Below, piece by piece: positions 12,699 to 60,859 of a DNA stretch of 64,000 nt. Numbering within the stretch: the first letter of the stretch is position 1; each line of letters begins with the position of its first letter. The notes beneath the pieces were generated by a model, which was not told the origin of the DNA, made no database searches, and saw only the letters and a program-made list of their open reading frames with translations. The stretch is taken from contig JAYKKI010000064.1 in assembly GCA_039881145.1 (NCBI GenBank), forward strand, positions 5,017,001 through 5,081,000, written 5' to 3'. The position numbers were made by a program, and so were the translations under genes. This stretch comes from Druceiella hillmani (Eukaryota; Arthropoda; Insecta; Lepidoptera; Hepialidae).

Positions 12699-13191
12699 GA
12701 AGTTATACTTCTTTAGCCCCGTTACGAAGAAATAATGAGAGTTTAGTGAGCAACTTCATCCTGTCGATTTTTGTTGCGCGCGCACGATGCAGCAAAAGTC
12801 GACATGATGAAGTTGCTCACTAAACACATATTTATATGCGTGTAGTGACTGATGCTATTATTCATGATAGTTATTGAGGTATTTGTAAATATTCGAAACG
12901 TATTTTATATTCATACAAATTTAAGTTATATCTGTGATTTTAAATATTTATTAATACTTTTAATTTAATAGTGGTCCATATGATAAAAAACATTTATATA
13001 TTGTAAATACGTGATAGAAATAATGCTTATAAGCTTTTTAAAATATATTTTAAGTGTATTTCTCTAAGTGAGGTTAAGTTTCGGTATGTATTTATTTACA
13101 TTATGTGTTATACATTATTTTAAAATTTAATTATTTGATTCAATACAGATTTTACCAACCGTATTTATAATCGCCGTCAAGTTCTTTTATT

Positions 13192-13534
13192 GAAGTAAAA
13201 CTTCTTTACGCACGCTTGACTTGGGGAGTAAGCTGGTGAATGCGTGACGAGAGCGTTACGAAAAGTGTGATCGGGCGAGGCGAACGGAAGTTGAGAGGGA
13301 TATATAAGTTAGTGAAGACAGAAAGAGAGAGAGAGTTACGTTTCGTATATTACTATAGGGACAAGAGAGAGAGGTGCGAGCACACATTTTCTTTCTCTCT
13401 TTCTCTCATAGCCAGTTATGTTTCGTATATCTAAGACACAGTGCAAGACTATTGTCTGTATCACACTGTAGGAGCAAGAGAGAGCAGTGCGCGCGCACAT
13501 TTTCTTTCCCTCTTCCTCTCATAGCCAGTGCATG

Positions 13535-13580
<46 letters not shown>

Positions 13581-13783
13581 GCGAGTTTGCTAGCGTTACG
13601 CCAACGGTATTTTTTGATTATTTGGTAATTTCATTTCGTTCTTGAGCCATTTTATAAATTATTATTTTGTTCAATACATTAAATATTCTACGTTTAAAGT
13701 GAATAAAATTGTAAATTCATTTTAAAGTTCATATTTTGTGAATTTGAAGTTTTACTTCAGTCGTGTGGTCTAAAGCACAGTGG
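13192..13783 (+). mobile_element. Palindrome-ended element, family A copy 1 (long form)
   Basis: Bounded by GAAGTAAAACTTC (13192-13204) and GAAGTTTTACTTC (13746-13758), followed by a 3' segment in which GTGTG pairs with CACAG/CACAC, then a T run. The interior has (GA)n/(CT)n tracts, two related blocks ending CTCTCATAGCCAGT (about 13409 and 13521) and a (TA)n tract (13537-13577). No protein; the 64-codon frame inside is spurious. This is the reference for the seven copies in the window. Helentron/HINE is the best structural match. Confidence 0.85.
13537..13577. repeat. (TA)n microsatellite inside A1
   Basis: About 20 perfect TA repeats at the fixed internal position where every nearly complete family A copy has them. 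Confidence 0.9.
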
Positions 13784-13889
13784 TTTTTTTTGTTATTTTA
13801 TTTCCATTAATTATTTGTGTGCTAAACAAAGTTATTCTTGTATTAAACCAAATAATATAACGCCTAACGCGTACATAATACTGGCACAA

Positions 13890-14416
13890 TTTTTTTTTAG
13901 TACAATTTCTTTAATTTATAAATGTAAGTAAGGGACAATACATATAATACCAAAGAATATTATAATTAATTTTCGTTAGTTTAATTCATTATCTTAACAG
14001 ATTATATCGAAAGTCACATGTCGCTACGATTAATTTTTTTGGTATGAATTTATTTTAAAAAAAGTAAAAGTTTCTAAATGTTTTTTTGTTTAATTAAAAG
14101 AAAATTTAAAATAAATCGTTTTTAAATTTTGAAAAAAAAAATGATTTTAGACGCGCTCTTTTAATAAAGAAACTACCATCAATTTACTGTCAAACATCTA
14201 ATTTATAACACTCTGTTTCCGCGGTGTTTTTTTCCTTTTTTCAAATTTAGATTTTATGTCAATATTTTTTTTTTGTAAATTTGTAATTAAAATATTGTTT
14301 GTATTTCAATTTGACAAAGAATTGTAATTAAGTCGAACAAATTGTTATAAATAGTCCAAAGTATAGATTTGTCAAATCAATTTTTATATAAAATAATCAC
14401 GGACGGCTAATATTTA
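13890..14416. other. AT-rich DNA, nothing identified
   Basis: Long T and A homopolymers; no gene or repeat family recognised. Confidence 0.4.
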
Positions 14417-15232
14417 AGAGTTTACACCTTAAGAATCGATTTTCATATATAGCGCCCTGTATGAAATTTTATGAGGTGTAAAATCAGAAATTCAGAGCGT
14501 TAGAAAAGTGTAACCGTTAGGTTCTGATCGTACGAAGTTCAGAGCGTTAAAAAAGTTTAACCGTTAAATGGCTTCTCCGGCCAACATTTCTGCGCCTCTT
14601 TAGAGTGAGATATCAATATGTTTATTTGTCATATCTTATGGCGTAATGGCAATGACGGAGTGTGACACACATATTGGCATTTTCTTATGGCGTAATCGCA
14701 ATGACAGAGTTTTCCACACATATTGACATTTTCTCATGGCGTAATCGCAATGACAGAGTGTGACACACATGTTGGCATTTTCTCATGGCGTAATCGCAAT
14801 GACGGAGTGTGACACACATATTGGCATTTTCTCATGGCGTAATCGCAATAACGGAGTGTGACACATATTGGCATTTTCTTATGGCGTAATCGTAATGACC
14901 GAATTTACTATCGTTCGCTTATATCAAGATGTAATCATTAAATGTCATTATGTGTCAATATTTGGTGTCTTCTAACCAACAAAATTAAAAAGTCTCTTTT
15001 AATTTTAACTTCTTAGTCTAACGTTACTAAATGTTTTTAACTTTGTAGTATAAATTTGATCTTGTTCATTTGTGTTTTACTTAAAAATAATTATATTGTC
15101 TGCATTTGTTTATTAAAGAATTTTCCATTTACATTTAATGATATTTATATTTATATACAGTGTTACATATTTTATACATTCCAAAACAATCAGGAGTAAA
15201 CTCCAGTCGCGCGTCGGAGCCTACACGCACAA
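14417..15232 (+). mobile_element. Palindrome-ended element, family D copy 2
   Basis: The left palindrome is decayed (AGAGTTTACACC, 14417-14428), but the adjoining ATATATAGCGCC region matches D1 and D3. The right palindrome GGAGTAAACTCC (15193-15204) is intact and is followed by TCGCGCGTCGGAGCC, CACGCACAA and a T run, as in the other D copies. The interior differs from D1 by a local expansion of a 49-bp unit. No coding capacity. Confidence 0.78.
14634..14905. repeat. 49-bp minisatellite inside D2, six units
   Basis: GCGTAAT recurs at 14641, 14690, 14739, 14788, 14837 and 14884. D1 has only one diverged unit here, so the array grew within this copy or its lineage. Confidence 0.9.
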
Positions 15233-15609
15233 TTTTTTTGTTGAACGCGTCGCTGTAAGAGTTCTGTAGCCAAATCACCTTTACAGTTTCGCCATGTCCG
15301 TCTGTCTTTCTGCCTGTTTGTCACAGTATAGAGTATCGTTGACAAGGTCTTTTGGAAATATTGAGGGTGTATCGTGAACTCTTTTTCGATGCAGGGATCC
15401 GTTTATTAAATATTAAGGTTTAAATGGTCAGTTTTGTTAGAATTACGTGTCCCCACCCCCTAACAGCTAAGCCGTTATTTCTTAATATATGGAAAATATT
15501 CATAATTGTAGTATGTATAACGTACTAGGAATAAATAAATATTTTAGTGAATTGAAAAAAATATGTAATGGAAATTTAGGACTTTATCCCTTGAAGGCGG
15601 TAGTAGTAG
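15233..15609. repeat. Fragment of dispersed repeat E (short)
   Basis: CCGTCTGTCTTTCTGCCTG near 15297 and TCACAGTATAGAGTATCG resemble the middle of repeat E (best copy 25530-25700). The rest of this stretch holds nothing recognised. Confidence 0.4.
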
Positions 15610-16415
15610 CGTAATGACCTTTGGAAAGAAGTTTCGAAAGAAAATTTAGTTTCAATAGAAAATAAACAGCCATCAACCGGAGAGTTTTAGTTTCAATACC
15701 TCCTAATGTAGTCTTGGAACACCCTAATGCTGAACCTAGACTATTAATGACCTTTGGAAAGAATTTTCCAAAGAAAATTTAGTTTCGATAGAAAATAAAT
15801 AGCCATCAACCGGAGATTCGAGCTTCAATACCTCTTAATGTAGTCTTGTAACGCCCTAATGCTGAATCTAGGCTATTAATGACCTTTGGAAATAATTGTC
15901 GAAAGAAAATTTAGTTTCGATAGAAAATAAATAGCCATCAACCGGAGATTCGAGCTTCAATACCTCTTAATGTAGTCTAGGAACGCCCTAATGCCGAACC
16001 TAGGCTATTAATAAACTTTAAAAAAGAATTTCCATAAGAAAATTTAGTTTCGATAGAAAATAAATAGCCATCAACCGGAGATTCGAGCTTCAATACCTCT
16101 TAATGTAGTCTAGGAACGCCCTAATGCTGAACCTAGGCTATTAATAAACTTTGAAAAAGAATTTCCATAAGAAAATTTAGTTTCGATAGAAAATAGATAG
16201 CCATCAACCGGAGATTCGAGCTTCAATACCTCTTAATGTAGTCTAGGAACGCCCTAATGCTGAACCTAGGCTATTATTAAACTTTGGAAATAATTTTTGA
16301 AAGAAAATTTAGTTTCGATAGAAAATGAATAGTCATCAACCGGAGATTCGAGCTTCAATACCTCTTAATGCAGTCTTGGGACGCCTTAATGCTGAACCTA
16401 GGCTATTAGTTTGCC
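15610..16415. repeat. Tandem array, six units of about 133 bp
   Basis: The word GCCATCAACCGGAG (last copy GTCATCAACCGGAG) begins at 15669, 15802, 15934, 16067, 16200 and 16332. Each unit also has CCTAATGC and, in most, CCTAGGCTATTA. An 81-codon frame starting at 16325 begins in the last unit and is not supported. Confidence 0.93.
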
Positions 16416-17473: not shown

Positions 17474-17548
17474 CTCGTTTGACTTGTCTCAATGAGACCT
17501 TTGGTTACTATATGTAACCAAAGGACTCATTGAGACAAGTCAAATGAG
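17474..17548. repeat. Long hairpin at the start of the 123-bp array
   Basis: Arms 17474-17508 and 17514-17548 pair over 35 bp with two mismatches and a 5-base loop. The left arm is an inverted partial array unit and the right arm is the first direct unit. Confidence 0.92.
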
Positions 17549-18610
17549 TCCAAACACGACGGGTTTACTGTTAGCCGCTGAAAAGTTCCCATCACTACTT
17601 CTCTCGTCCATCATCGTATCATCCTGGTTACAATATGTAACCAAAGGACTCATTGAGATAAGTCAAACGAGCCCAAACTCGACGGGTTTAGTGTTAGCCG
17701 CTGAAAAGTTCCTATGACTACTTCTCTCCTCCATCATCGTATCATTCCGATTATAATATATAGTCAAAGGACTCATTGAGATAAGTCAAACGAGCCCAAA
17801 CTCGACGGGCTTACTGTTAGCCGTTGAAAAGTTCCCATCACTACTTCTCTCGTCATCGTATCATCCCTGTTTCAATATGTAACCAAAGGACTCATTGAGA
17901 TAAGTCAAACGAGCCCAAACTCGACGGGGTTAACTGCTAGCCGCTGAAAAGTTCCTATGACTACTTCTCTCCTCCTTCATTATATAATTCCAGTTACAAT
18001 ATGTAACCAAAGGACTCATTGAAACAAGTCAAACGAGCCCAAACTCGACGGGTTTACTGTTAGCCACTGAAAAGTTCCCATGACTACTTCTCTCCTCCTT
18101 CATCATATCATTCCAGTTACAATATGTAACCAAAGGACTCATTGAGACAAGTAAAACGAGCCCAAACTCGACTGGTTTACTGTTAGCCACTGAAAAGTTC
18201 CCGCGACTACTTCTCTCCTCCATCAACGCATCGACCCGGTTACATTATGCAACCAAAGGACTCATTGAGACAAGTCAAACGAGCCCAAACTCGACGGGTT
18301 TACTGTTAACCACTGAAAAGTTCCCATGACTACTTCTCTCCTCCTTCATCATATCATTCCAGTTACAATATGTAATCAAAGGACTCATTGAGACTAGTAA
18401 AACGAGCACAAATTCGACGGGTTTACTGTTCGCCTCTGAAAAGTTCCCATGACTACTTCTGTCCTCTATGATCATATCATACCGGTTACAATATGTAACC
18501 AAAGGATTCATTGAGACAAGTCAAACGAGCCCAAACTCGACGGGTTTACTGTTAGCCGCTGAAAAGTTTCTATAATGGCCTCCCTCCTCCACCATCATAC
18601 CAGTCGATGG
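17509..18610. repeat. Tandem array, about nine units of 123 bp
   Basis: AAGGACTCATTGAGA (with variants) starts at 17521, 17644, 17767, 17886, 18010, 18133, 18256, 18379 and 18502. Units carry a GTAACCAAAGG motif and a block around ACTTCTCTCCTCC. The minus-strand frames at 18029-18226 and 18275-18511 are repetitive and spurious. Related diverged units occur at 27.24-27.56 kb. Confidence 0.93.
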
Positions 18611-22738: not shown

Positions 22739-23939
22739 GAAGTTATACTTCTTTAGGGGTATTATGAAAAAATGATGACAGTAAAATTTTACTACGCGTG
22801 CGCACGATGTAACAAAAATCGACAGGATGAAGTTACTCACATAACACATATTTACATGCGTGTAGTGGTACTATATTCATGATAGTTATTGAGGTATTTG
22901 TAAATACATTATACGTGTTTTATATTCGTACAATTTTAAGCTATATTTGTGCTTTTAAATAATATTTTTTAGTAATTGAAATTTAATAGTGGTCCATATA
23001 ATAAAAAACATTATTTATTGTGAATATTCGTGATAGAAATAGTGCTTATAAGCTTTTTAATATATATTTTAGGTGCATTTCTCTAAGTGAAGTTAAGTTT
23101 CGGTATGTATTTATTTGCATTATAAAATATATCATTATATAATGTATCATTTATTAAATATTTAAAATTAATAAATTTCCAGTATATTCATTTATTTTCA
23201 TTATTAATTAAACTTTATTTAGATTATTTTAGTAAATGTAACAATTCATTATATGTGCTTGTTTATATTAAATTGAATGCTGACTATTCATTTAAATTTT
23301 AAAAAAAATTAAATAAAGTAAAAAATAATATTAATAATATAATAATATTAATTATTACTATTAATAATAAGAATATTGTTGTTATTAATATTATTAATCA
23401 TTTGATTGAATTTAGATTTTACCAATCGTATTTATAATCATGCTTCGGTCTTTTTATTATTTTATTTCCATTAATTATGTCTTTTTATTATTTTATTTCC
23501 ATTAATTATTTGCGTGCTAAATAAAGTTATTCTTGTATTATGCCAAAGAAGTATAACTTCTGACGCGCATATATAAGTACACGTACAATTTTATTTCCAT
23601 TAATTATGTCTTTTTATTATTTTATTTCCATTAATTATTTGCGTGCTAAATAAAGTTATTCTTGTATTATGCCAAAGAAGTATAACTTCTGACGCGCATA
23701 TATAAGTACACGTACAATTTTATTTCCATTAATTATATCTTTTTATTATTTTATTTGCATTAATTATGTCTTTTTATTATTTTATTTCCATTAATTATGT
23801 CTTTTTATTATTTTATTTCCATTAATTATGTCTTTTTATTATTTTATTTCCATTAATTATTTGCGTGCTAAATAAAGTAATTCTTGTATTATGCCAAAGA
23901 AGTATAACTTCTGACGCGCATATATAAGTACACGCACAA
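22739..23939 (+). mobile_element. Palindrome-ended element, family B copy 2, with amplified right end
   Basis: The left palindrome GAAGTTATACTTC is at 22739-22751. The right palindrome GAAGTATAACTTC occurs three times (23548-23560, 23677-23689, 23899-23911), each followed by TGACGCGCATATATAAGTAC. The last ends CACGCACAA before a T run. The interior matches B1 on both sides of the A1 insertion. No coding frame. Confidence 0.8.
23450..23939. repeat. Terminal amplification in B2: 129-bp and 31-bp units
   Basis: The palindromes are spaced 129 bp then 222 bp apart. The difference, 93 bp, equals three extra copies of a 31-bp unit (TTATGTCTTTTTATTATTTT plus ATTTCCATTAA). Repeat thus lies within repeat at the element's right end. 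Confidence 0.85.
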
Positions 23940-24246
23940 TTTTTTTAACCTAAAAATTTAGTGTTTTTTTTGTGAAAAAAAATAAAAATTCGATTTCCTC
24001 AAAAACGGCTCCAAAATTTTTCTTCGAACGTCCAATATTGATAGTAGTTTATCTAATCAATATATCACACTTTACTTTCCGCGAAAAACTCTGGTTAATT
24101 TTTATCAATATCGTAATAAAATAATATGATTTTATTGCTAATTTATAAAAAAAGACCTAAAACAGGGTAGTTTTTTATAAGAAAGTGTCTACCTATAATT
24201 TATTGGATATAGTTCTTGATGTCACTGGTAAATTCTAAATTTTTTT
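23940..24246. other. AT-rich spacer
   Basis: Nothing recognised between B2 and D3. Confidence 0.35.
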
Positions 24247-24642
24247 GGAGTTAATTCCTTAAAAATCGATTTTCATATATAGCGTCCGGTATGAAGTTTT
24301 ATGAGGAGTAAAATCAGATGTAGGAGATAATCTCCGAAACGACTCATCCAATTTAAAAAATTCTTTCACCAATATTTAGAAAGGACCTTCAGGCTGGACA
24401 TATGTTGTATATTATCCCGTAACAAAATTTCACGGCAACCAGTTTTACAACGTAAGTCAACAGAAAAACAGTCGAGCGAGGTATATTTACATACAAATGG
24501 GTTTCTTATGAACTCTGCCCTAACGGTAAGAGCTTTATTGATATTTAGGTATATTTACATACAGTGTTACCTATTTTATACATTCCAAGACAATAGTAAT
24601 TAAGGATTAAACTCCAGTCGCGCGTCTGAGCTTACACGCACA
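24247..24642 (+). mobile_element. Palindrome-ended element, family D copy 3
   Basis: The left end GGAGTTAATTCC (24247-24258) and right end GGATTAAACTCC (24604-24615) are both slightly decayed. The subterminal ATATATAGCGTCC and the right tail TCGCGCGTCTGAG ... CACGCACA plus T run match D1 and D2. The middle is shorter and diverged. Confidence 0.72.
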
Positions 24643-24764
24643 TTTTTTTAAATCAGAAAGCGATCTAGCAAGATTGCCAAGTATTCTATGAATCTGAAAA
24701 ATCCACGAAACGTCCTAGTAGGAAATGGATTTGTCCATTTTTCAAGCCTTTCTTCCTCGTCCAC

Positions 24765-25215: not shown

Positions 25216-25246
25216 TTTGTATATCACATCTCTGTGTACGGAGGTA

Positions 25247-25463
25247 ACAACTGAAAAAAGAAAAAGAAAATGTGTGCTCGCACCTCTCTCTCTTGTCGCT
25301 ACAGTAATATACGAAACGTAACTCTCTCTCTTTCTGTCTTCACTAACTTATATCTCCCTCTCAACTTCCGTCCGCCTCGCCCGATCACACTTTTCTTTAC
25401 GCTCTCGTCACGCATTCACCAGCTTACTCACCAAGTTAAGCGTGCATATAGAAGTTTTACTTT
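25247..25463 (-). mobile_element. Family A copy 2, truncated
   Basis: Only the left-end part of family A is present, reversed, ending in a decayed palindrome (GAAGTTTTACTTT, 25451-25463). The (TA)n and the right-end half are missing; the break is inside the first CT-rich block. Frame 25270-25491 is spurious. Confidence 0.8.
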
Positions 25464-28040: not shown

Positions 28041-29519
28041 TGATGAGTGCCAGCCAACTAACATTATACGGCGACTAATAGCGGGATCAAGGTTACGCCT
28101 CGGAACGTTCTGGATTACGCGCGTGAAACTGTATACAGTTGATTATTTTTTGTTTCGTATTTTAGACTTTGCGTATAAAATTTCGTCATCGCGGATTGTG
28201 TCTGATAATTATTTTAATGTTGCTAATGGATAGTATTCATGATAAATATGTTGTAAAACTGAAAAAAATGGTGTCACATATTATCTTAGAAAATTATTTT
28301 AACACTGCGAATGGACTTTATTCATGAAGGACATCAACTTTAGTTCTAGGTCTAAAACGAATAAAAAATCACCGTATTTATAAGTATACATTTTAAAATA
28401 CAAACTTGATTTTGCAGTTAGTCACTTCTGTGGAGTTTATATGAACTTTTTACAGACTCAACTACATGTCATAAACTGATCGGCAATTACTCGTAAACTA
28501 GTTAGAACCTACTTAGCTGCGATAATTCTACTTTAATTTCTTTATATATACCACTATTTTGAATACTTTTCTAACATACAAAACTAATAAAAATGATTCG
28601 TGTATTGCAAAAGTGTTCGCAACGTATTCCCAATATTTTTGAAAGACGTATTCAATGATGTCCTACGCAATGAAGTATACGAATAAAAAAAATCACGTCC
28701 ACTTATTTAAAAAAATATAGTGTACTCATTTTAAAAAAATGTGTACCTCCACTGCATGTAAAATTCAGGGGAGCTACACTATTTTTTTACGACCGCATTT
28801 CGTGACGTTATAAGCGTTATAAATATATATAATTATGTCGTGCATTCCAACTTTATAACACCAATAGTCTGCGAGTAAAGTGGCTGTGACATACAGACGG
28901 ACATGGCGAATTTGTAAGTGTTCCTAATTTGGTTGCGGAATCCTATAAAGGAATGAGATTCCTATGACATAACTAATTGATATACTTTATTAAAAGGGTT
29001 GCAGTACTGGCGTACTTTGAAAGTTGCGATACAATTGCTACTGTGTCCTTTTGATTTATTTTTCGCAATTTTTTTTGTTGGTCGAATAGTTTAAACCACG
29101 TTATTATAAAATGTTATTGATTAATGAAGCACGCAAAGGCATCACGCTATTTCCACACGTATTCCGTTTTGAACGTTCCCGCAGTATGTCGGTTAGAATG
29201 CGATTTTCCTCATTTGTCACGCAGCAAACGTCGTGATGTTCATAAACATTTTTTAAGCACATAATTTTGGTTGCTTTTAGTGTCGTGTTAAAATTAGAAA
29301 AAGATATACATACAAACGGACGGACAGACATCAAGTTGTTTTTTGAGACGACACGCGCCCAAGTGTCAGATTGTGACATAGTTGTACTAAACAACCCAAA
29401 CATAAGTTCGAGTCATTACTAAATCATTATTATAATTGTTAATATACTTAATATAACTATAAGATAAAACCATGTATTTTAATTTTAATTTGGTAAATAA
29501 ACTTTTTTTACACAATTAA
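28041..29519. other. AT-rich DNA, nothing identified
   Basis: About 1.5 kb. A short CGGACGGACAGACA motif near 29320 resembles the primer-like words in LINE/SINE tails. The 99-codon minus-strand frame at 29104-29403 shows no domain. Confidence 0.35.
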
Positions 29520-29755
29520 ATGAAACTACGTGGTGTAGTATTATTTCTATCTTTAAGTTCTTTACCACGATCTAGGTTTCGTTGTATTACGACATCTTCA
29601 GGTGGGCTATTGGCAAAGATTGATGATGTTGTAATATAACGAAACCTAGGTCGTGGTAAAGAACTTAAAGAAAGTAGAAATAATACCACATCACGTAGTT
29701 TCATTTAATTGTGAATAATAAATTTCTCCAAAATTAACGCCAAATATATTCAAAA
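29520..29755. mobile_element. Foldback element F copy 2
   Basis: 29520 onward pairs with the stretch ending at 29704 as arms of roughly 80 bp with few mismatches, closing around a short middle near 29600-29630. The right arm continues with AATTTCTCCAAAATTAACGC as in F1, F3 and F4. The 62-codon minus-strand frame inside is an artefact of the hairpin. Confidence 0.85.
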
Positions 29756-29809
29756 CTTTTTGTACCTAAAATACGAAACATTTTAATTACGCAGAGATGT
29801 AATGATTCA

Positions 29810-30265
29810 CAATTTTTTTATTGTCGAGTCCATCATCTGGAGATGAAAATGAAAGTGCGGTGAAAATTGGTCTGGCGTTTCAGAAATAGAATATAATTTT
29901 TTTGGAAATCTGGTATTTTTTAAAATATTGAAAACCAAAAAATTCGGCGTATGACAGCGAAAAAACGGCAAAAAATAAAATAAAATATCTAATCATAATA
30001 CAAAACAAAAAAACTATCAGCATAAATGCGCATATTTTATATTTTTAATAATAAGTCAATAGCAAATAAAAATCATGAAAACGTAACAAAAAACATCATA
30101 ATTTTTTAGAAACGATTATAAAAAATTATCATTAATGGTTTTTTTATTTGTAGCCATTGCTAAATTAATTAAAAATAAATTGTCAACTGACGGTGACTTT
30201 TGTTCTGTTGTTGTCAAAATTAAAGTTTTTAGATCTTTCCAAATTATACGTGGCTTCTTCAACAA
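29810..30265 (+). repeat. Dispersed repeat K copy 3
   Basis: Colinear with K1 and K2 (GGTGAAAATTGGTCTGGCG, CAGAAATAGAATATAATTTT, CTGGTATTTTTTAA, GTTGTCAAAATTAAAG). The 87-codon frame at 30135-30398 overlaps its end and is not conserved among copies. Confidence 0.68.
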
Positions 30266-31244
30266 CCCTCTTGAGCCTTTGAATTTTATTGTTAGTATCT
30301 TTTATCGGTATATGGAGGATATAATCGGCACTTTGTTCCATCTTGCTGATGCAAACAGTTCTTTAGAAATAGCATTTACGAACTATTACGGAAAATAATT
30401 CGACTTTTCATAAAAAAATGCTAGATTTTTATTGCATTGCTTTTCATAAAAATGCTAGATTTTTATTCTCGTAATATCTGAATACTTTTGCCGGTCACTT
30501 TTACAATAAGAGGTAGTTTAATTACGCGCTGAGCAACAAAATTATTGCATATTTCAAACTCTATTTCATAATGGTATCTTAAATAACTCGATCAATTTAT
30601 ATACCCATTAAACAGATAATATATAATCTACAACGCGCGGTTGCCGCTTGCTTTACCACGAGCGGCAACTGCGCGTATAAATTGCGTAATTATCTACGAA
30701 CACGTGGTAACGGAACCCTAAGTTTAAAGCGTGTCCGAAACGCATTTTAATTGAAAATGATTCGCAGTTTAAATTCCATCCTGTAACAACTCTTGGATCA
30801 GTTCCAACTGTGTCTTTCACATTTTAGTACCAGCCTACGCGTTGTCTACACGCTACATTCGTCAAGTGCTTCTCGACCATTCGCTGCTGTGACTCAGTTA
30901 GAGATAGGATATCATGATCCAACCTGATACTTTCAAGTATCGATACGACAATATTCGATATGGTAGATCGATACAAACATGGCGGATTTTGTTTTGTTTA
31001 TATATATTCATGCTCTAACTTCGAACTGTATATGACGGGAGATTATGCTTTGAAGTTTGAAGGTGGGTAGATATATATGTATATACATGTTTTGTTGTTC
31101 AATGTTTCCACAGAACACTCGCTTAATATTATTAAGTCATTTGTTATTTTTTCGTCATTGAGTGTAGTGGTGGTGCAATCTGTTGTTTTTTAGATTAATT
31201 GAAGACAATGTCTCCATAAAAAAAAACTTACTTAAACTTTTGCT
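30266..31244. other. Unassigned DNA with a TCGATA cluster
   Basis: A 26-bp direct duplication (CTTTTCATAAAAA...ATGCTAG) lies at 30402-30465. Several ATCGATAC and TTCGATAT words cluster at 30935-30985 and again at 34560-34600. No gene. Confidence 0.4.
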
Positions 31245-31412
31245 TAAAATTCACAAAATATGAACTTTAAAATGAATTTACAATCTTATTCACTTTAAAC
31301 GTAGAATATTTGATGTATTGAACAAAATAATCATTCGTAAAATTGTTCAAGAACGAAATGAAATTACAAAATAATCAAAAAATCACCGTTCGCGTAACGC
31401 TGTCAAACTCGC

Positions 31413-31443
<31 letters not shown>

Positions 31444-31781
31444 TATTTCATGCACTGGCTATAAGAGGAAGAGAGAAAGAAAATGTGCGCGCGCGCTGCT
31501 CTATCTTGCTCCTATAGTGTGATACAGACAATAGGCTTGCACTGTGTCTTAGATATACGAAACATAACTGGCTATGAGAGAAAGAGGGAAAGAAAATGTG
31601 TGCTCGCATCTCTCTTGTCCCTACAGTAATATACGAAATGTAACTCTCTTTCTGCCTTCACTAACTTATATCTCCCTCTCAACTTCCGGTCGCCTCGCCC
31701 GATCACACTTTTCGTAACGCTCTCGTCACGCATTCACCAGCTTACTCCCCACGTCAAGCGTGCGTAAAGAAGATTTACTTC
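31245..31781 (-). mobile_element. Palindrome-ended element, family A copy 3 (long form)
   Basis: Reversed copy. The left-end palindrome reads GAAGATTTACTTC (31769-31781), one base off. The right-end palindrome, at about 31228-31245, is decayed beyond clear recognition. (TA)n at 31412-31448 and both CT-rich blocks are present. Confidence 0.8.
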
Positions 31782-32066: not shown

Positions 32067-33013
32067 GAAGTGAAACTTCTTTGGGTGTGATGAGAGTAAA
32101 ATTTTCAAGGTCACAACGTTTCTATAACATCAGAATGTAACGAATCTATCACAAGAAGGATGGAAAATAGGTACTTAGGTATTAACCGAGAGAGATGGAT
32201 GAACACGATAGAATAAGATGAGAAGTATGCGTATGCGAAACAAAAATGGCGCTCACTACTCGCTATCAGCTGTTTTGTACGTTATGTGTGTCAAAAGTAA
32301 ACTGTCAAAATTTTGTCCATTTATTTATCTATTCGTTTCTATAACATCAGAATGTAACGAATCTATCACAAGAAGGATGGAAAATAGGCACTTAGCTATT
32401 AACCGAGAGAGATGGATGGACACGATAGAATAAGATGAGAAGTATGCGCATGCGCGGAAACAAACAAAAATGGCGTTCACTACTCGCTATCAGCTGTTTT
32501 GTACGTTAAGTGTGTCAAAAGTAAACTGTCAAAATTTTGTTGATTGATTTATCTATTTATGATTGATATATTACTAATTTTGCGTGTATTTCATCTATCA
32601 CAAGATTAACAATGTATGTATTTAATTTATTTAAAAAGCCGCAATGAACCCGCAAATATAGTTGTCGCAAAATTTAATTTACAACAGGAGCAATACATCC
32701 TGACGTCTTTCAGCTCCATTTAACTCTGTTCTGGTACTCGCGTCGTGGTTATTTTTAATTGACAATTGTCTGTAATTTTTTATGAATTTTAATTTTATTA
32801 TATGTTTACATCGATTTGTAATGACATATTATTCATTTTCTGAATGTATAGTATTAAAATCTTATTACACGAATTTAGTACAGTCCATAGAATTCCACTT
32901 AATATATCCTCTCTCTTTCCCTCTGTTATTTTACTCTTTACTGACAAATCGAGATTTAAATCGTTAAAGAAGTTTCACTTCTGTCGTATACTGAGTTCCA
33001 TTCGATTAATTAA
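32067..33013 (+). mobile_element. Palindrome-ended element, family C
   Basis: Bounded by GAAGTGAAACTTC (32067-32079) and GAAGTTTCACTTC (32969-32981), then a tail of about 32 bp and a T run. The subterminal TTTGGGTGTGATGAGAGTAA resembles the family B left end. The interior has a 217-bp tandem duplication. It sits in T-rich satellite sequence. No protein is recognised; the 71-codon frame at 32218-32433 is in the duplication. Confidence 0.8.
32121..32560. repeat. 217-bp tandem duplication inside element C
   Basis: TCTATAACATCAGAATGTAA begins at 32121 and 32338. Both units contain AAATGGCG (32244 and 32468) and a motif around CTCGCTATCAGCTGTTTTG. Confidence 0.9.
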
Positions 33014-34480
33014 TTTTTTTCTTATTTTTTAATTTATTTTTCCTCTGACGTTAATTATATGTGTATTAACTGACAATTTGCAGATATATAAATAACGGCG
33101 CCATAAGAAATACACATCCCTAAAGCCTCTTTAATCTTATACTTAGTTAACAATCTTTATACATACAAAATAATAATAGCATAAACAACATTTATGTCTT
33201 AAAGTTTTTTTCTTTTATTTATTATTACGTTACATACATGTATATATTTAACAAACAATTAGCAGACATAAAAAATAACGATATCCGAAGCAAAACGTTT
33301 TTCCTAAATCATTTTACTTTCACTTAACTAACAATATTTATATTTTACAAATAATAACACAAGCAAAATTGTTTTCTTAAAGTTTTTTCATAATTTGATT
33401 ACATGTTACGTAGGTATATACTTAAATAACAATTTACAAACGTAAAAAATCATATTTTACGTTTGTATAAGTGATGCCACAAGCAAAATACTTGTATTTA
33501 CTTATAGGTTCACTTAACCAACAATATTTATATTTTACAAATAATAATACCACGAGCATCATTGTTTTCTTAAAGTATTATCCTAACTTGATTATCTACA
33601 TAGATATATACTTAAATAACAATTTATAAACATAAAAAAACGATGCCATAAGCAAAATAATTTTCTTAAAACCTTTTACTCGTATTGTCTTACATATAAG
33701 TTACACTTAAGAAATAATAATACCACGAGCAACATCGCTTTCTTTCCTTGTATTTATTACTGTTATGTAGTTGTATACTTAAATAACAATTTATAAACAA
33801 AAAAAAAACGATGCCACAAGCAAAATAATTTTCTTAAAACCTTTTACTCGTATTGTCTTACATATAAGTTACACTTAAGGAATAATAATACCACGAGCAA
33901 CATCGCTTTCTTTCCTTGTATCTATTACTGTTATGTAGTTGTATACTTAAATAACAATTTATAAACACAAAAAACGGTGCCACAAGCAAAATAATTTTCT
34001 TAAAACCTTTTACTCGTATTGTCTTACATATAAGTTACACTTCAGAAATAATAATACCACGAGCAACATTGCTTTCTTTCCTTGTATTTATTACTGTTAT
34101 GTAGTTGTATACTTAAATAACAATTTATAAACACAAAAAAACGATGCCATATTAAATAACAATTTAGAAACACAAAAAAACGATGCCATAAGCAAAATAA
34201 TTTTCTTAAAACCTTTTACTCGTATTGTCTTACATATACGTTACTTACAGTTACACTTAAGAAATAATACCACGAGCAACATCGCATTCTTTCCTTACAT
34301 TTGTTACTGTTATGTATACTTTAATAACAATTTGAACTTTAATAAAAACAACATGCCTTTCTGAAAACCTTTCACTTTTATTTTCTGATGTGTACTTTAC
34401 TAATAATTTTCAAATATACAAAACAAAGATTTCTTCGGTAACATCGGTTTATTTATATTTACTTATACTTTACTCACATG

Positions 34481-40870: not shown

Positions 40871-41045
40871 CCACTTAAAAATAGTCATATTGGAATTTGG
40901 GGCTGAGAGTAAAGTCGCGAAAACATTTTTCATTGCATATGTATTGTAAAATATTTTTTTTTAGATTATAGGGCGTCAAAAATTTTTTTTCGTAATTGTG
41001 GGATATTATATGTTTAAAGATAACCAGAAAAAATGTACAAAAAAA

Positions 41046-41430
41046 GTCGCGTGTGTGCTTATGTATACGCGTTAGAAGTTATACTTCTTTGGCATAATAC
41101 AAGAATAACTTTATTTAGCACGCAAATAATTAATAGAAACCAATAATTTACAATTTATAATGCAAATAAATATATATTTAACATAACTTCACTTAGAGAA
41201 AAACACTTAAAGTATATTTTAAAAAGCTTACAAGCACTATTTCTATCACGAATATTCATAATAAATATATGTTTTTTTATTATATGGCCCACTATCAAAT
41301 TTCAATACTAAAAATACTATTTAAAAGCACAAATATAACTTAGATTTGTATGTATATAAAACACGTGATGTGTATTTACAAATACATAATAACTATCATG
41401 AATATAGCATCAGTCACTACACGCATGTAA
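41046..41430 (-). mobile_element. Palindrome-ended element, family B copy 3, truncated
   Basis: Reversed copy. Its right end begins after an A run with GTCGCGTGTGTGC, then GAAGTTATACTTC (41075-41087), TTTGGCATAATAC and the B interior to CACTACACGCATGTAAATAT, where similarity stops. The left terminus is missing. Confidence 0.78.
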
Positions 41431-41528
41431 ATATATGAATATCCTCAATAATCCAGTTACATCTTTATACCTTAGACTTGGATTCCAATAATTCTCATAC
41501 CATGACCTCGAACTACGATCGAAAAACA

Positions 41529-41575
41529 ATATATATCATTCTGTATATTTGGACCACAAATATACAGAATGATAT
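41529..41575. repeat. Hairpin at the start of the 41.5-42.6-kb array
   Basis: ATATATCATTCTGTATATTT pairs with AAATATACAGAATGATATAT across a short centre. As in the 123-bp array, the left arm is an inverted partial unit and the right arm the first direct unit. Confidence 0.9.
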
Positions 41576-42660
41576 ATGTGCTCCCTCGGTGTCTGCGTCC
41601 AAAAATCGTTTGAAATTACATTATTTATCATAATCGGTAGATCGAAATTCCTTCTATAACCCGTCCCTACTCCTAACGTGTCGTTAATCTTATTTTATTC
41701 ACTGAACCACAAATATACAGTGATATATACGCGCCCTCGGTATCTGCGTTCAAAAATTGTCTGAAATTACATTATTTATCATAATCGGTAGATCGAAATT
41801 CCTTCTATAACCCGTCCCTACTCCTAACGTGTCGTTAATCTTATTTTATTCACTGAACCACAAATATACAGTGATATATACGCGCCCTCGGTATCTGCGT
41901 TCAAAAATTGTCTGAAATTACATTATTTATCATAATCGGTAGATCGAAATTCCTTCTATAACCCGTCTCTACCCCTAATATGTCGTTTTGTTTTTAATTA
42001 ATCTTATTTTATTTACTGGACCACAAATATACAGAGTGATATATGTGCACCCTCGGTGTCTGCGTCCAAAAATCGTCTGAAATTACATTATTTATCATAA
42101 TCAGGAGATCGAAATTTCTTCTATAACCCGTCCCTACCCCTAATGTGTCGTTTTGTTTTTAAGTAATCTTATCTTATTCACTGGACCACAAATATACAGA
42201 GTGATATATATGCACCCTCGGTGTCTGCGTCCAAAAATCGTCTGAAATTAGATTATTTATCATAATCGGCAGATCGAAATCCCTTCTATAACCCGTCTCT
42301 ACCCATAATGTGTCGTTTTGTTTTTAAGTAATCTTATCTTATTCACTGGACCACAAATATACAGAGTGATATATATGCGCCCTCGGTGTTTGCGTCCAAA
42401 AATCGTCTGAAATTACATTATTTATCATAATCGGCAGATCGAAATCCCTTCTATAACCCGTCCCTACCCCTAAAGTGTCTTTTGTTTTTAATTAATCTTA
42501 TTTTATTCACTGGACCACAAATATACAGAGTGATATATATGCACCCTCGGTGCCTACGTCCTAAAATCGTCTGAAATTACATTATTTATCATAATCGGCA
42601 GGTCGAAATTCCTTCTATAACTCGTCTCTACCCCTAACGTATCTTATTTTATTACCGTGC
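41549..42660. repeat. Tandem array, seven units of 153-165 bp
   Basis: ACCACAAATATACAG begins at 41553, 41706, 41867, 42020, 42185, 42350 and 42515. Units contain CCCTCGGTGTCTGCGTCC and ATTTATCATAATCGG. Early units are 153-161 bp, later ones 165 bp with the extra TTTTGTTTTTAA. Confidence 0.93.
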
Positions 42661-42786: not shown

Positions 42787-43706
42787 CTGTATACTTAGTT
42801 TTCTAAGCTGGCAGTAAAGTTATTTATATGAATAAACTAAATATACAAAGCTTCTGGGAAAGCTATAGCGAGTATTCTCTATATATCTGCGAAAGATAAG
42901 TTGGTAATATATCTACATTGTGAAAAATTAAAATTTATAAATATATTAATACCCTTAAACCTCTCGTGGGAGTTAAAGCATACAATATCAGTATTTTATC
43001 GTACTAGGTAATTCTGTTACGAGTATTAAAAGTGGTAAGTACCTTATACTTGTTATAAAATATTAGGACGTACGTAGCACGCATACTTGCTTGTTGGATG
43101 TTCTGTCGTGAGTACATAACATACTCGTCACAAAGTATTCAATATTTGTTTGTTTGTTACATACCAGGATTTCTCATGTTATGGTATTTCACTTATTACA
43201 ATGAAACTAAACAAAAAGTTACGAAAAATCGAATGGTTATTGTTCTATTCTTATGAAATCTTTTGTGATGGTCCTTCAGAGACTATGAATGAACATGTGC
43301 GCGCCAAATGTCTGTATTCAAAGGAGTTTAGACACATTAGAGAATAACTATTATGAAGCAAGCACTAAGTACGACTAAAGAAGATAGTAGTTTATCCATG
43401 AGCATGACATGTTACGAATATGAACCATGAATATTACGCGGAACGTTTTTTGTTTCATTCTTTCCTAAGGAGGGGTTTATACGTCGAACGGAACAGCCTA
43501 CGCACGACTGTAATAGCTTTGTTTCTTTTACTCTTATGGTAGTTGTTTCATTACAAAGAGAGACACAAAGTTGCGTATTTTGTAACAGGTATCTGCGGAA
43601 CGTCATACGCTAGTAGGTCCGTTCCACGGAAATAATCTGTACTCTTATGGATTAAAGTATATACACCCCGCCTCTAGATTTTGGTACGTTTTTTATCACA
43701 AAAAAA
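42787..43706. other. AT-rich DNA, nothing identified
   Basis: Short frames at 43150-43347 and 43412-43606 have no recognised features. Confidence 0.35.
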
Positions 43707-43907
43707 CGAGTGTGCTTTAGACCACACGACTGAAGTAAAACTTCAAATTCACAAAATATGAACTTTAAAATGAATTTACAATTTTATTCACTTTAAACGT
43801 AGAATATTTAATGTATTGAACAAAATAATAATTTATAAAATTGTTCAAGAACGAAATGAAATTACAAAATAATTAAAAAATCACCGTTCGTGTAACGCTA
43901 GCAAACT

Positions 43908-43998
<91 letters not shown>

Positions 43999-44272
43999 CA
44001 TGCACTGGCTATGAGAGGAAGAGAGAAGAAAATGTGCGCGCGCACTGCTCTCTCTTGCTCCTACAGTGTGATACAGAGAATAGGCTTGCGCTGTGTCTTA
44101 GATATACGAAACATAATTGGCTATGAGAGATATATATACAGTAATATACGAAACGTAACTCTCACTCTTTCAACTTCCGTTCGCCTCGCCCGATCACACT
44201 TTTCGTAACGCTCTCGTTACGCATTCACCAGCTTACTCTCCAAGTCAAGCGTGCGTAAAGAAGTTTTACTTG
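43707..44272 (-). mobile_element. Palindrome-ended element, family A copy 4
   Basis: Reversed copy with a good right end: CGAGTGTGC and GTGTGG flank the hairpin, then GAAGTAAAACTTC (43732-43744). The left end reads GAAGTTTTACTTG (44260-44272). The central TA tract is the longest in the window (43911-43997). Part of the second GA-rich block is deleted (around 44128-44150, replaced by TATATATA). Frame 44011-44208 is spurious. Confidence 0.83.
43911..43997. repeat. (TA)n microsatellite inside A4
   Basis: About 43 TA units with one GT interruption. Confidence 0.92.
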
Positions 44273-50101: not shown

Positions 50102-50432
50102 GAAGTAAAACTTTTTTACGCACGCTTGGGGAGTAAGCTGGTGAATGCGTGACAAGAGCGTTACGAAAAGTGTGACCGGCTAGGCGAACGGAAGTTGAGA
50201 GGGAGATATAAGTTAGTGAAGACAGAAAGAGAGAAAGTTACGTTTCGTATATTACTGTAGGGACAAGAGAGAGAGGTGCGAGCACACATTTTCTTTCTCT
50301 CTTTCTCTCATAACCAGTTATGTTTCGTATATCTAAGACACAGTGCAAGCCTATTGTGTGGATCACACTGTAGGAGCAAAAGAGACTGCCGCGCACATTT
50401 TCTTTCTCTCTTCCTCTCATAGCCAGTGCATG

Positions 50433-50494
<62 letters not shown>

Positions 50495-50696
50495 GAGTTT
50501 GCTAGCGTTACGCGAACGGTGATTTTTTGTTTATTTTGTAATTTCATTTCGTTCTTGAACAATTTTATAAATTATTATTTTGTTCAATACATTAAATATT
50601 CTACGTTTAAAGTGTATAAAATTGTAAACTCATTTTAAAGTTCATATTTTGTGAATTTGAAATTTTACTTCAGTCGTGTGGTCTAAAGCATACTCG
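50102..50696 (+). mobile_element. Palindrome-ended element, family A copy 5 (long form)
   Basis: Left end GAAGTAAAACTTT (50102-50114), right end GAAATTTTACTTC (50659-50671) plus GTGTGG ... AAGCATACTCG and a T run. (TA)n at 50436-50488. Both CT-rich blocks present. Frames inside (50238-50420, 50308-50562, 50426-50638) are artefacts of the repeats. Confidence 0.85.
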
Positions 50697-50859
50697 TTTT
50701 TTTGTAGATATTTTTAAAATACACAATTCCACAGTACAGTATTATGATACATTTCGTAAAGTTTAGTCAGCGTTAGCAATGGAAGCGCCCAAAATTCTAC
50801 TTTTTTACGAAACATTGATTTTTTTTATATTTCTTGTAAATATAACATGCATGTATTAT
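50697..50859. other. AT-rich spacer
   Basis: Nothing recognised. Confidence 0.3.
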
Positions 50860-51180: not shown

Positions 51181-51286
51181 TTTATATATTTACATTTTGA
51201 ATTAATATATTTACATTTTGAATTTATATATTTACATTTTGAATTGATCTATTTACATTTTGAATTTATATATTTACATTTTGAGA
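51181..51286. repeat. 20-bp tandem repeat, five units
   Basis: TATATATTTACATTTTGAAT repeated with small changes. Confidence 0.85.
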
Positions 51287-51530
51287 AATATTGAATATAT
51301 TTGGCGTTAATTTTGTAGAAATTCATTGTTCACAATTAACTTTCTTTAATTAGGTTTCGTTGTATTACGACATTTTCAGGTGGGCTATTAGCAAAGATTA
51401 AATCAATCAGACAATCTTTGCTAATAGCCTACCTGAAGATGTTGTAATACAACGAAACTTAGGTCGTGGTAAAGAATTTAAAGAAAGTAGAAATAATACT
51501 ACATCACATAGTTTCATATAATTTAACATA
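51287..51530. mobile_element. Foldback element F copy 3
   Basis: Left arm TTGAATATATTTGGCGTTAA through TTTCGTTGTATTACGACATT and GCTATTAGCAAAGATT; right arm is its reverse complement to about 51525. This copy keeps the outer left-arm part that F1 lacks, giving an arm of more than 100 bp with an internal deletion. Confidence 0.82.
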
Positions 51531-55240: not shown

Positions 55241-55476
55241 GAAGTAAAACTTCTTTACGCACGCTTGACTTGGGGAATAAGCTGGTGAATGCGTGACGAG
55301 AGCGTTACGAAAAGTGTGATCGGGCGAGGCGAACAGCAGTTGAGAGGGAGAATAGTGAAGATAAGTTAGTGAAGACAGAAAGAGAGAGAGTTACGTTTCG
55401 TGTATTAATGTAGGGACAAGGAAGAGAGGTGCGAGCACACATTTTCTTTTTCTCTTCCTCTCATAGCCAGTGCATG

Positions 55477-55523
<47 letters not shown>

Positions 55524-55722
55524 AGTTTGCTAGTGTTACGCGAACGGTGGATTTTTTGATTATTTTGTAATTTCATTTCGTTCTTGAACAATTTTATAAA
55601 TTATTATTTTGTTAATACATTAAATATTCTACGTTTAAAGTGAATACAATTGTAAATTCATTTTAAAGTTCATTGTGAATTTGAAGTTTTACTTCAGTCG
55701 TGTGGGGTCTAAAGCACACTCG
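55241..55722 (+). mobile_element. Palindrome-ended element, family A copy 6 (short form)
   Basis: Perfect GAAGTAAAACTTC (55241-55253) and GAAGTTTTACTTC (55683-55695), then GTGTGGGG, AAGCACACTCG and a T run. (TA)n at 55479-55520. Only one of the two CT-rich blocks is present, which makes it about 110 bp shorter than A1 and A5. Confidence 0.88.
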
Positions 55723-56029
55723 TTTTTTTTCTATCTCCTGAGTCGTATTTCACATTGGGCCTTCTTTAGTCCAGGTATCTTACTGTATATGACTGCGCTG
55801 TGGTCGGATGTCTGCATGGGTGTTGTTTTGAGACGAAACCTGATATTGCTATTTGTATATCGATATTTAGATATAGAGAATTCCACAGCACGGGTGGTCG
55901 GCGGTACTATATTCGAAGAATACACGTTCTGCAGACTAAACAAACAGGTTTGAAGCATATCGCATTCACACGACATTTTCTACGCAGTATTTTGCATTCA
56001 TTGCACCAGAGTTGAAGCTGTTTTTTGGA
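55723..56029. other. Unassigned DNA
   Basis: Open in several frames on both strands (55675-55953, 55731-55976, 55800-56015) without a recognised domain; likely composition. Confidence 0.3.
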
Positions 56030-57085: not shown

Positions 57086-59126
57086 GTAAAACTAAAGAAC
57101 CGATTTGAAGCAGTTGCATTTTAGCAATAGTTAATTCTAACTGTTTTTCTTGACTTAATTGTAAGAAAAGGTATACTGAATTTTGTTTTGGATAGGGATA
57201 AAGGTGATAAATTAATCTGTAATATTTTATAATAAAAATCGATGTAATCAATTTTTTACATGCAAAATATGTTTTTTGAAATGAACGACTTAATAAGCAT
57301 TTTATTTTAATAAAACTTGATAAACTATGATTAATTACAAATTAATCTTAAAAAATCGGTTAAGTGAAAGTTTGCATAATTTGTGTTTCGTGGCATCAGC
57401 CCCCGACAAAAATTATGGATAGGTAGTGCACTCCGACTGTGCAGCGCTGCTCTTGACTTGGAAAGCCAGCAACAGTAAAAATTAGTATCCAAAGACGAAG
57501 CCAACATTGCACATACTCGGAGAGCGTACTAATTAAAAAAAAAAATTGAAAACGTATAAGGACAACAAAAGTTTTTTAATATTTTTTCTCGAAAAACTTC
57601 TCTAAAACTAACGGTTCAGCTGAATTATAAGGAAAACAATTATTCATTTGTTTATTTTCATATAACTACTGAATTTTGATAATTTTAGTTAATTCTCAAT
57701 ATTCATGATATATAATTTTTTCAGATTTTTCTGAGCGACCAATTTAGCAAGAACCGAAATTTTTAGGCGTTTTCCCCGAGAAAATGTTTAAACAATTACA
57801 TAATATATATTTTTGAATTCGTGCTTCAATAAGTTTTCATTTGACACCCTACTAGATCCTCTTGATTTTTTTTTGTATTGTATCCCCTGAAATTAACCCC
57901 TAAAATAAAAATTGAAATTTCTAGACTTCACGTCTGTAATTGAACTTTCGTACAATATCTCTGTGCTAAATATGTTTTTATATAGAATAATTGCTAAGAA
58001 AATCGCCTTAATGGACATCTGTAGTGACTGTAGTGATATAGACTCACTTTTCAGTTTTAGCAATTTTGCCACAAAACACTGAAAATATAAAGTAAAAAAG
58101 TGACATAATCGTTTTTTTTTGTAAATTAACCATGAGCGATCTTGTTAACAGTTAAGTACGTTGTTTTTTATGACTTTTCTTTGATTTAAAAAAGAAAAAC
58201 GATTAGAGGTTTTCTTTGGCTAAATTGCACTAAAATTTCACGAAGACGTAAATGTATGTCTTGCATTGATAATATTAAACTTGATATGTGGCTTTAAAAT
58301 GGTTTAACCCTAACTTACATCGTATGACTTTGATATTTTGTGATTCGATTTTGGATAGATATGAATCGATTTTGGAAAATATTATGATGTATTAAATCGA
58401 TTAAAAAAATCGGTAGGTCGTAACTTAAGCGATTGATATTTAAAAAAAAATATTCAAATACGAAGTTCCTACTCGAAGAAGGGTGGCAACCCTTCTTAAA
58501 TTAAAACTGCTTTTTTCGCAATACTTCTTGTACATAATCCGGATGTGGAATTTGAAGCAAAATTAAAAATAAAAGCTCATTGAAGTAAATTTTTTTATTA
58601 CTTTTTTATTTAAACTATACTTTATGAATCAATATATTAAAACTATTAGTGGTTCAAGAAAAAAAAATTGTTTGACCCAAGAAAGGATTTGTTTGAACCC
58701 AACAAAACATACAAATCACTAAAAATAAATAAACTTGTTTTTTACTATAAAAATAAAATAAAAAACTTTGAACAAAAGTGTTAATCACTTTTGTTAAACC
58801 TCATGAATAATTTAATACGAAACAGTTACATTAATCATATTTATCTAAATTACTAAAAGCTAATACCAATATCGGCAAAAGTAATTTGTACTTATTTACT
58901 GCTATTTGGTTAATCAATCTTATCTGATGTCAGTTAGGAACTCAACTTTCGTAGTTTGACGATAACAAGAGTTTGTTTATTATATCTATCTTTTGATTTA
59001 GTCATTTTGATCAATTTCTTGAAAGCTTCGATTGTTTAATAACAACTGTTGAAATCAACAATAATACTCTGCAAGTCATTCGAATTCTAACTAATATTTT
59101 AAATGCGTAAGTGTGTTTATTTATTT
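57086..59126. other. AT-rich DNA, nothing identified
   Basis: About 2 kb without recognised gene or repeat; 57395-57530 is somewhat less AT-rich. Confidence 0.4.
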
Positions 59127-59660
59127 CACGTGGTAATGGAGTAATGAATCGACATGATTTTTTGCAGTTTATTTGTCTTTCTTTCACGTGGTAATGGAGT
59201 AATGAATCGACATGATTTAGCACCTTTTATTTGTCATTCTTTCACGTGGTAATGGAGTAATGAATCGACATTATTTTTTGCACAGTTTGTTTGTTCTTCT
59301 TTCACGTGGTAATGGAGTAATGAATCGACATGATTTTTTGCACAGTTTATTTGTTCTTCTTTCACGTGGTAATGGAGTAACGAATCGACATGATTTTTTG
59401 CACAGCTTGTTTGTCCTTCTTTCACGTGGTAATGGAGTAATGAATCGTCATGATTTTTTGCACAGTTTGTTAGTTCTTCCTTCACGTAGTAATGGAGTAA
59501 TCAATCGACATGATTTTTTGCACAGTTTGTTTATCCTTCTTTCACGTGGTAATGGAGTAATGAATCGATATGATTTTTTGCACAGTTTGTTTGTTCTTCT
59601 TTCACGTGGTAATGGAGTAATGAATCGACATGATGTTTTGCACAGAGATAATTGATGTGC
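59127..59660. repeat. Tandem array, nine units of 58-60 bp with E-boxes
   Basis: CACGTGGTAATGGAGTAATG begins at 59127, 59185, 59243, 59303, 59363, 59423, (59483 as CACGTAG), 59543 and 59603. Eight of nine units carry the palindromic E-box CACGTG. Because most periods are 60 bp, long frames are open on both strands (59260-59655 plus; 59234-59485 minus); these are not genes. Confidence 0.95.
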
Positions 59661-60027
59661 TAAGAAATTACGTAGTAATAATGTTGGATTATGTGTTTAT
59701 TCAATTAACCAAAATATTCTTAATTTAACAAACTCTTATTTAAAGTAAATGAAATACGATTGAAAATGCAATACGTGCAAGAAGAACCAGTTAACTAATT
59801 AACGCATACATAGTGCTGCCATCTAGTGTTAAAAATGTACAAGTTTAATTTTGCTTTTAATCAAATATATACTGGGAAAATATCACTTTATACTGGAAAA
59901 TCTAATTTTTTCAAGAAAATTTTTATTTGAAACTGAAAAAGTTCACAGACTGCATAACGGAGCAGCGTCACAAATGAGCAACGGATCACGTGATGTTTTG
60001 AAACACTGCATACTTTGCTACTATGGC
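59661..60027. other. AT-rich DNA, nothing identified
   Basis: TGCTGCCATCTAGTG near 59816 is the only notable word. Confidence 0.35.
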
Positions 60028-60304
60028 GTAGTCCTACTATGGCATTTTGATGAATGTCGGTAATGGGATTCTTCGACGTTTTGAAGTAAAACTTCTTTAC
60101 GCACGCTTGACTTGGGGAGTAAGCTGGTGAATGCGTGACGAGAGCGTTACGAAAAGTGTGATCGGGCGAGGGCGAACGGAAGTTAAGAAGGAGATATAAG
60201 TTAGTGAAGACAGAAAGAGAGTTATGTTTCGTATATTACTGTAGGGACAAAAGAGAGAGGTGCGAGCACACATTTTCTTTCTCTCTTCCTCTCATAGAGT
60301 GCAA

Positions 60305-60365
<61 letters not shown>

Positions 60366-60859
60366 CGAGTTTGCTAGCGCTACGCGAACGGTGATTTTTG
60401 ATTATTTTGTAATTTCATTTCGTTCTTGAACAATTTTATAAATTATTATTTTGTTCAATACATTAAATATTCTACGTTTAAAGTGAATAAAATTGTAAAT
60501 TAATTTTAAAGTTCATATTTTGTGAATTTGAAGTTTTACTTCAGTCGTTTGATCTAAAGCACACTCGTTTTTTTTTAATTTCTTAACATTATATCTGTCT
60601 ACCTGTGAATATGGGTATAAAACATTCAATGGAGGTAAATTATGAGAATACTATAAGTTATATGTATTGCTTATTAGATTGAACCTAGTATTTGCTCGGA
60701 TTAATTCACATACTCGCCAAAGCGTCTCGGCGAACATTCTGCTAGAATCTCGGCACGATTACGGCTACAAGCATATGTTCATATGCTCGGTGAATATCAT
60801 CGAATATGAAAAATTATACAATTATATGAATATAATCAGTTTTATGTCATGAAATTGAG
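60028..60859 (+). repeat. Duplicated segment, copy 1 (contains A7)
   Basis: 60028-60082 and 60568-60859 together match 63553-63902 in order (GTAGTCCTACTATGGCATTT ... TACTCGCCAAAGCGTCTCGG ... ATTATACAATTATATGAATA). The match is interrupted only by element A7. Confidence 0.88.
60083..60567 (+). mobile_element. Palindrome-ended element, family A copy 7 (short form), with empty site
   Basis: Perfect GAAGTAAAACTTC (60083-60095) and GAAGTTTTACTTC (60530-60542), tail to CACACTCG (60567) and nine T. (TA)n at 60306-60363. One CT-rich block. Compared with the empty site (63601-63607, ACTTTTT), the element plus several T replaces nothing: four T precede it, nine follow, five stand in the empty site. 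Confidence 0.9.

Follow-up and report, generated by a model that had tools for sequence, protein, structure and literature searches.

Four repeat families in Druceiella hillmani with shared palindromic ends are very probably short non-coding Helentron passengers

Helentrons and their short non-coding passengers, the HINEs, which are the same group as that described under the name Helitron2, have been characterized at their ends in two papers. In the mite Metaseiulus, the subTIRs of HINE-Mo "are themselves palindromic," and palindromic subTIRs were also reported from Culex and from a single Helentron family of D. willistoni and D. ananassae, with families that are less than 70% identical yet carry identical or nearly identical subTIRs (Thomas, Vadnagara & Pritham, 2014, PMC4067079). 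For Helitron2, the equivalent repeat, termed the ATIR, lies 0–2 bp from the end of the element on the 5′ side, where it is included in a hairpin, and approximately 20–30 bp from the end on the 3′ side (Bao & Jurka, 2013, PMC3627910). According to the same paper, Helitron-1N1_CRe goes in after TTTT without target duplication, target duplications of approximately 7–19 bp accompany CRe-1, 2, and 3, and two related Culex elements show compensatory changes in their ATIRs; it was suggested that the 5′ hairpin is opened when the two ATIRs pair, and that this pairing determines where replication ends.

The window analyzed here, a stretch of 64,000 nucleotides (64 kb) from one Druceiella hillmani contig, contains four repeat families, A to D, and we consider it highly probable that they are passengers of this kind. 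Their end architecture is already known, as the families match the published descriptions of Helentron/HINE and Helitron2, and the individual families may be unreported. The original prediction, made from the sequence, had guessed at a Helentron/HINE mechanism, which is probably correct, and had taken the palindromic end motif to be undescribed, which is wrong, given the palindromic subTIRs described in PMC4067079.

Family A comprises six longer copies (A1–A6) and one fragment (A7), with an AT microsatellite inside the element:

13192–13791, plus strand: A1, family A of the probable HINEs, left end GAAGTAAAACTTC, right end GAAGTTTTACTTC at 13746, T8 end; lies within B1.
31244–31781, minus strand: A2, left subTIR GAAGTAAATCTTC after T5; the right end is missing just before the subTIR.
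43700–44272, minus strand: A3, both ends present, first base of the left subTIR altered; T7 end; 3′ hairpin.
50102–50703, plus strand: A4, one altered arm base at each end; T7 end.
55241–55730, plus strand: A5, subTIRs intact at both ends; T8 end.
60083–60576, plus strand: A6, subTIRs intact at both ends; T9 end; empty site within the window.
63553–63759, plus strand: paralogous empty site of A6, GAC TTTTT AATTTC, uninserted.
25255–25463, minus strand: A7, 5′ fragment.

The remaining three families have fewer copies, with D1 situated beyond the part of the window for which shared ends had been predicted, and with B3 and D1 joining A2, A3, and A7 on the minus strand:

12699–13898, plus strand: B1, family B, left end GAAGTTATACTTC, right end decayed, T9; split by A1 (13192–13791).
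22739–23946, plus strand: B2, family B, right-end palindromes at 23548, 23677, and 23899; final T7.
41039–41437, minus strand: B3, family B, 5′-truncated, right end GAAGTATAACTTC, hairpin tail, T7.
32067–33020, plus strand: C, left end GAAGTGAAACTTC, right end GAAGTTTCACTTC at 32969, 16-bp inverted repeat, T7.
33134–33224 and beyond: uninterrupted paralogue of the C site, 79% identity, gapped.
255–812, minus strand: D1, family D, left end GGAGTTAACTCC, right end GGAGTAAACTCC, tail with a borderline hairpin, T8.
14417–15239, plus strand: D2, family D, 49-bp minisatellite (14634–14899), left end decayed, right end GGAGTAAACTCC, T7.
24247–24648, plus strand: D3, family D, one altered arm base at each end, T7.

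Other repeats are also present in the window. Among the tandem arrays of the window, seven with units of 60–168 bp lie at 10413–11083, 15612–16408, 17503–18568, 33607–34149, 34907–36013, 41550–42644, and 59124–59645, and an inverted repeat at 29514–29753, with relatives at approximately 4686–4922 and 51286–51523, appears to be a separate repeat family.

That a short palindrome lies at the ends of several element bodies, as originally predicted, is real, as evidenced by both the excess of the motifs and a scan that was blind to them. Within the 64-kb window there are 15 matches to GAAGTN3ACTTC, where 0.05 would be expected, and three to GGAGTN2ACTCC against an expectation of 0.01. The blind scan collected palindromes whose arms were 5 bp long and contained G or C at least once, around a centre of 2–4 bp, and paired each with an exact reverse complement 150–3000 bp downstream. 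From 252 palindromes it returned seven pairs, all seven of which were GAAGT pairs, namely the ends of A1, A5, A6, B2 (with three right ends), and C; the control of 20 first-order Markov sequences yielded one pair in total. A broader scan, which accepted any inverted repeat of 12 bp with a T run on its right, yielded 24 overlapping rows, compared with 0–9 in 20 simulations; at 15 bp there were 10 rows in the window, and 4 of 60 simulations had any row at all.

A further HINE-like candidate, present as a single copy at 28151–29819, was suggested by the 15-bp scan. It has a 15-bp repeat, TGTTTCGTATTTTAG, on the left by a T run, the reverse complement at 29766, and a tail in which an ATTAC...GTAAT stem is followed by CACAATTTTTTT; this stem was equalled by 45 of 200 shuffles and is therefore no better than shuffled sequence.

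The same ends were also sought in viral contigs of IMG/VR using five end patterns, four of which had zero matches there, with the left-end pattern of 15 specified bases matching 113 stretches. None of the 113 had a mirrored partner (allowing up to one mismatch) within 4 kb downstream, and the one stretch with two matches resembled a coding repeat by eye; these stretches are therefore taken as chance matches.

The right ends stop at a T run, in agreement with the original prediction, with T7–T9 in all 12 that survive (A1, A3–A6, B1–B3, C, and D1–D3), A2 and A7 being without a right end. In the six copies that were measured, 25–32 bp separate the right palindrome from the T run. Nearly all of the left ends adjoin T, as had also been predicted: at least two T are present at 11 of the 13 (B3 has no left end, and A2, A7, and D2 were read by eye), a single T is found at B2 and none at the decayed left end of D2.

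The joined flanks of the 14 copies, some with approximate boundaries (e.g., A2 and D2), were compared with the window in search of empty sites. A usable match across the join was found for three of the 14 (A1, A6, and C), and the window held no usable empty site for the other 11. Weak matches were obtained with the joined flanks of A4, B1, D3, and B2, the last being a match of 74% across 54 bp of the opposite strand, at 8795–8848 (E 0.002). The empty site of A6 is clear, with the copy from 63553 running through GAC-TTTTT-AATTTC, and the filled site reading GACGTTTT, the element, and then TTTTTTTTT-AATTTC. For C, the paralogue reads AAG-TTTTTTT-CTTTTATTT, and in the filled site the element is found between TTTTT and TTTTTTT-CTTATTTT; this join is uncertain by several bases, owing to the 79% match and to gaps in its T-rich part. 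Comparison of B1 with B2 places the insertion of A1 in an ATT/T-rich stretch, at a join that is blurred by the 31-bp repeats of B2. Apart from T, no duplication of the target was seen at A6 (clear), at C (gapped), or at A1 (blurred).

Together, the empty sites, the T7–T9 right ends, and the 25–32 bp between palindrome and T run place the palindromes inside the element boundaries: the left palindrome adjoins the 5′ boundary itself, and its right counterpart is subterminal. The possibility raised at the outset, that the palindromes lie outside the true boundaries, was therefore not borne out in the copies in which it could be tested.

The right end of B2 is present three times, within tandem repeats whose subunits measure 31 bp (23459–23946); its palindromes are separated by 129 and 222 bp, and the inner two are followed by four T only. 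These three right ends could have arisen from rolling-circle read-through or from unequal exchange.

The GAAGT/ACTTC arms are common to families A, B, and C, and the three bases at the centre are specific to each family, the right centre being the reverse complement of the left (AAA/TTT in A, TAT/ATA in B, and GAA/TTC in C). Mirrored centres were seen in all nine end pairs compared (five A copies, the B2 left end with each of its three right ends, and C), a set that is not independent, representing three families and including three B2 pairings that share a single left end. The "variable centre" of the original prediction does therefore differ among families, but it is not free, as it is mirrored between the two ends in A, B, and C. 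Because of this mirroring, the two palindromes together make up a 14–16 bp inverted repeat, which measures 14 bp in A (with one flanking T counted); in B and C it reaches 16 bp, extending three bases inward beyond the palindrome. The 11–15 bp inverted repeat expected of Helentrons and HINEs, placed at the boundary on the 5′ side and set back from it on the 3′ side, is exact in the best copies of A, B, and C, has one mismatch in D1, and is more decayed in D2 and D3. A sharing of subterminal bases between B and C beneath the left palindrome had also been predicted; B2 and C both carry GATGAnAGTAAAATTTT at this point, but it is absent in B1.

Mirrored centres in three families would be expected by chance with a probability of approximately 1e-5, given the window composition and with sites taken as independent. 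Family D follows the pattern less well, with a right centre of AA in D1, D2, and D3 and a left centre of TA in D1 and D3 (TT in the otherwise decayed D2); the one-base mismatch in D1 and D3 disfavors a strict rule of mirrored centres. Common arms around centres that are specific to each family and mirrored do agree with end-to-end pairing. If A, B, and C share ancestral ends, the centres would have changed in step at both ends, which may suggest that the ends must anneal (or be read asymmetrically) and are not merely bound at the arms by a protein, a proposal that we regard as tentative and on balance rather doubtful. The mirrored centres are also explained if each family descended separately from an ancestor whose inverted repeat was perfect. 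Were the proposal true, a single set of arms carrying three different centres would make a better case for end pairing than the two Culex elements of Bao & Jurka.

Ten tails (A1, A3, A6, B1–B3, C, and D1–D3) were folded as single-stranded DNA, with 200 shuffles each. The 3′ hairpin of A3 was equalled by none of 200 shuffles, that of A1 by 3, and that of B3 by 4, with D1 borderline at 14 of 200. At the 5′ end, each of the four families has palindromic arms in its best copies, giving a hairpin in or by the inverted repeat, and the predicted folds are weak: −1.6 kcal/mol for the 13-mer subTIRs of A to C (equalled by 18, 5, and 20 of 200 shuffles) and −1.0 kcal/mol for the 12-mers of D (32 and 28 of 200). 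The Helentron/HINE reading of the original prediction fits the asymmetric inverted repeat, insertion into T-rich sequence without target duplication (clear at A6, less so at C and A1), the internal micro- or minisatellites, and the 3′ hairpin of some copies. The other 6 of the 10 tails (A6, B1, B2, C, D2, and D3), where a hairpin is absent or no better than shuffles, count against it.

Among the 19 listed ORFs of at least 100 aa in the window, none contained a Helitron, helicase, or transposase Pfam domain, and none had a Pfam match above the family cut-off, although an ORF in tandem repeats at 59221–59655 had three weak matches below it. An autonomous partner was not seen in the window, a point that counts against the Helentron reading. 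Searches for Rfam families and tRNAs gave no matches. ORFs at 38645–39250 and 5496–5837, both on the minus strand, resemble mariner transposase fragments, which was not confirmed by Pfam or PDB; structure searches with the two returned none and three weak matches (E 0.59–0.96; histone H4 and an uncharacterized protein).

Other kinds of element could account for part of this evidence. MITEs belonging to a cut-and-paste DDE transposon that has short terminal inverted repeats would likewise be short, AT-rich, multi-copy, and free of recognized domains, with inverted repeats near both ends. The repeat here is asymmetric, however: on the left it is found at the boundary, and on the right 25–32 bp plus a T run separate it from the boundary. 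The empty site of A6 has no target duplication other than T, and none is seen for C, so that a MITE origin is very unlikely. Canonical Helitrons (Helitron1), which have 5′ TC and 3′ CTRR ends and insert between A and T, would explain the 3′ hairpin of some copies; yet the intact left ends start with GAAGT or GGAGT, the right ends are T7–T9 and not CTRR, and the insertions are in T-rich sequence, which together leave this assignment with almost no probability for the copies in this window.

A reading in which the palindromes are scattered binding or recombination sites, and not transposon ends, draws on the general knowledge that palindromes of this size are typical of protein sites. Against this, they are situated at the boundaries of repeated bodies and mirrored in pairs, and the empty site of A6 is without the whole unit between the palindromes, which refutes the idea for A6 and makes it extremely improbable overall.

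As Helentron passengers, the four families would move through the enzyme of another element. The subTIR (or ATIR) would be the palindrome at the left boundary together with its reverse complement 25–32 bp before the right T run. An autonomous Helentron would supply a Rep-helicase in trans, leading to a nick at the T boundary; the Rep-helicase would then displace one strand and stop near the right T run, and the copy would join a T tract without target duplication. As the subTIR is self-complementary, each end could either fold back into a small hairpin or anneal to the opposite end, and such folding or pairing may set the end point of replication, as suggested by Bao & Jurka (PMC3627910). That movement is by rolling circle, that the enzyme is a Rep-helicase, and that all four families use a single one are what membership of this element family would lead us to expect. 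A single trans-acting machinery, as originally proposed, is plausible for families A to C, and the case for its extending to D is weaker.

Compared with HINEs and Helentrons as described in PMC4067079, the elements of this study share palindromic subTIRs of 12–15 bp, with the 5′ copy by the terminus and the 3′ copy set back, subTIRs that are near-identical across families, a T-rich target with a variable number of T and no target modification, and, in some of the copies, microsatellites or tandem repeats. The 3′ stem-loop described there is seen here in some copies, with 6 of the 10 folded tails having no convincing hairpin, and the sequence itself is different. The 5′ subTIR directly follows T here, as opposed to lying 2–4 nt in, a position that becomes equal if flanking T are counted as part of the element, and in six copies the 3′ subTIR lies 33–39 bp before the point where the T run stops, which is close to or slightly below the published 38–60 bp (PMC4067079).

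The likeness to Helitron2, as described in PMC3627910, extends to the positions of the ATIRs, the 5′ ATIR in a hairpin, insertion in T tracts without duplication, and changes that preserve pairing. There, however, the hairpin is formed by part or all of the ATIR with bases downstream of it, whereas here it lies wholly within the ATIR, and the duplications of approximately 7–19 bp of CRe-1, 2, and 3 have no counterpart among the sites seen here. Lepidopteran Hel-2/BmHel-2 (PMC4344730) and Drosophila DINE-1 (PMC4067079) also belong to the non-autonomous elements of the Helitron class, and they have subterminal inverted repeats as well as a 3′ hairpin. Hel-2 differs in having TC and CTRR ends with A/T flanks (PMC4344730), and DINE-1 in a subTIR that is not itself palindromic (PMC4067079). 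A pattern that is striking in the raw sequence is thus an already described transposon signature, to which this window adds four HINE-like families, three of them with common arms and differing mirrored centres, offering a small natural test of the end pairing proposed for Helentrons.
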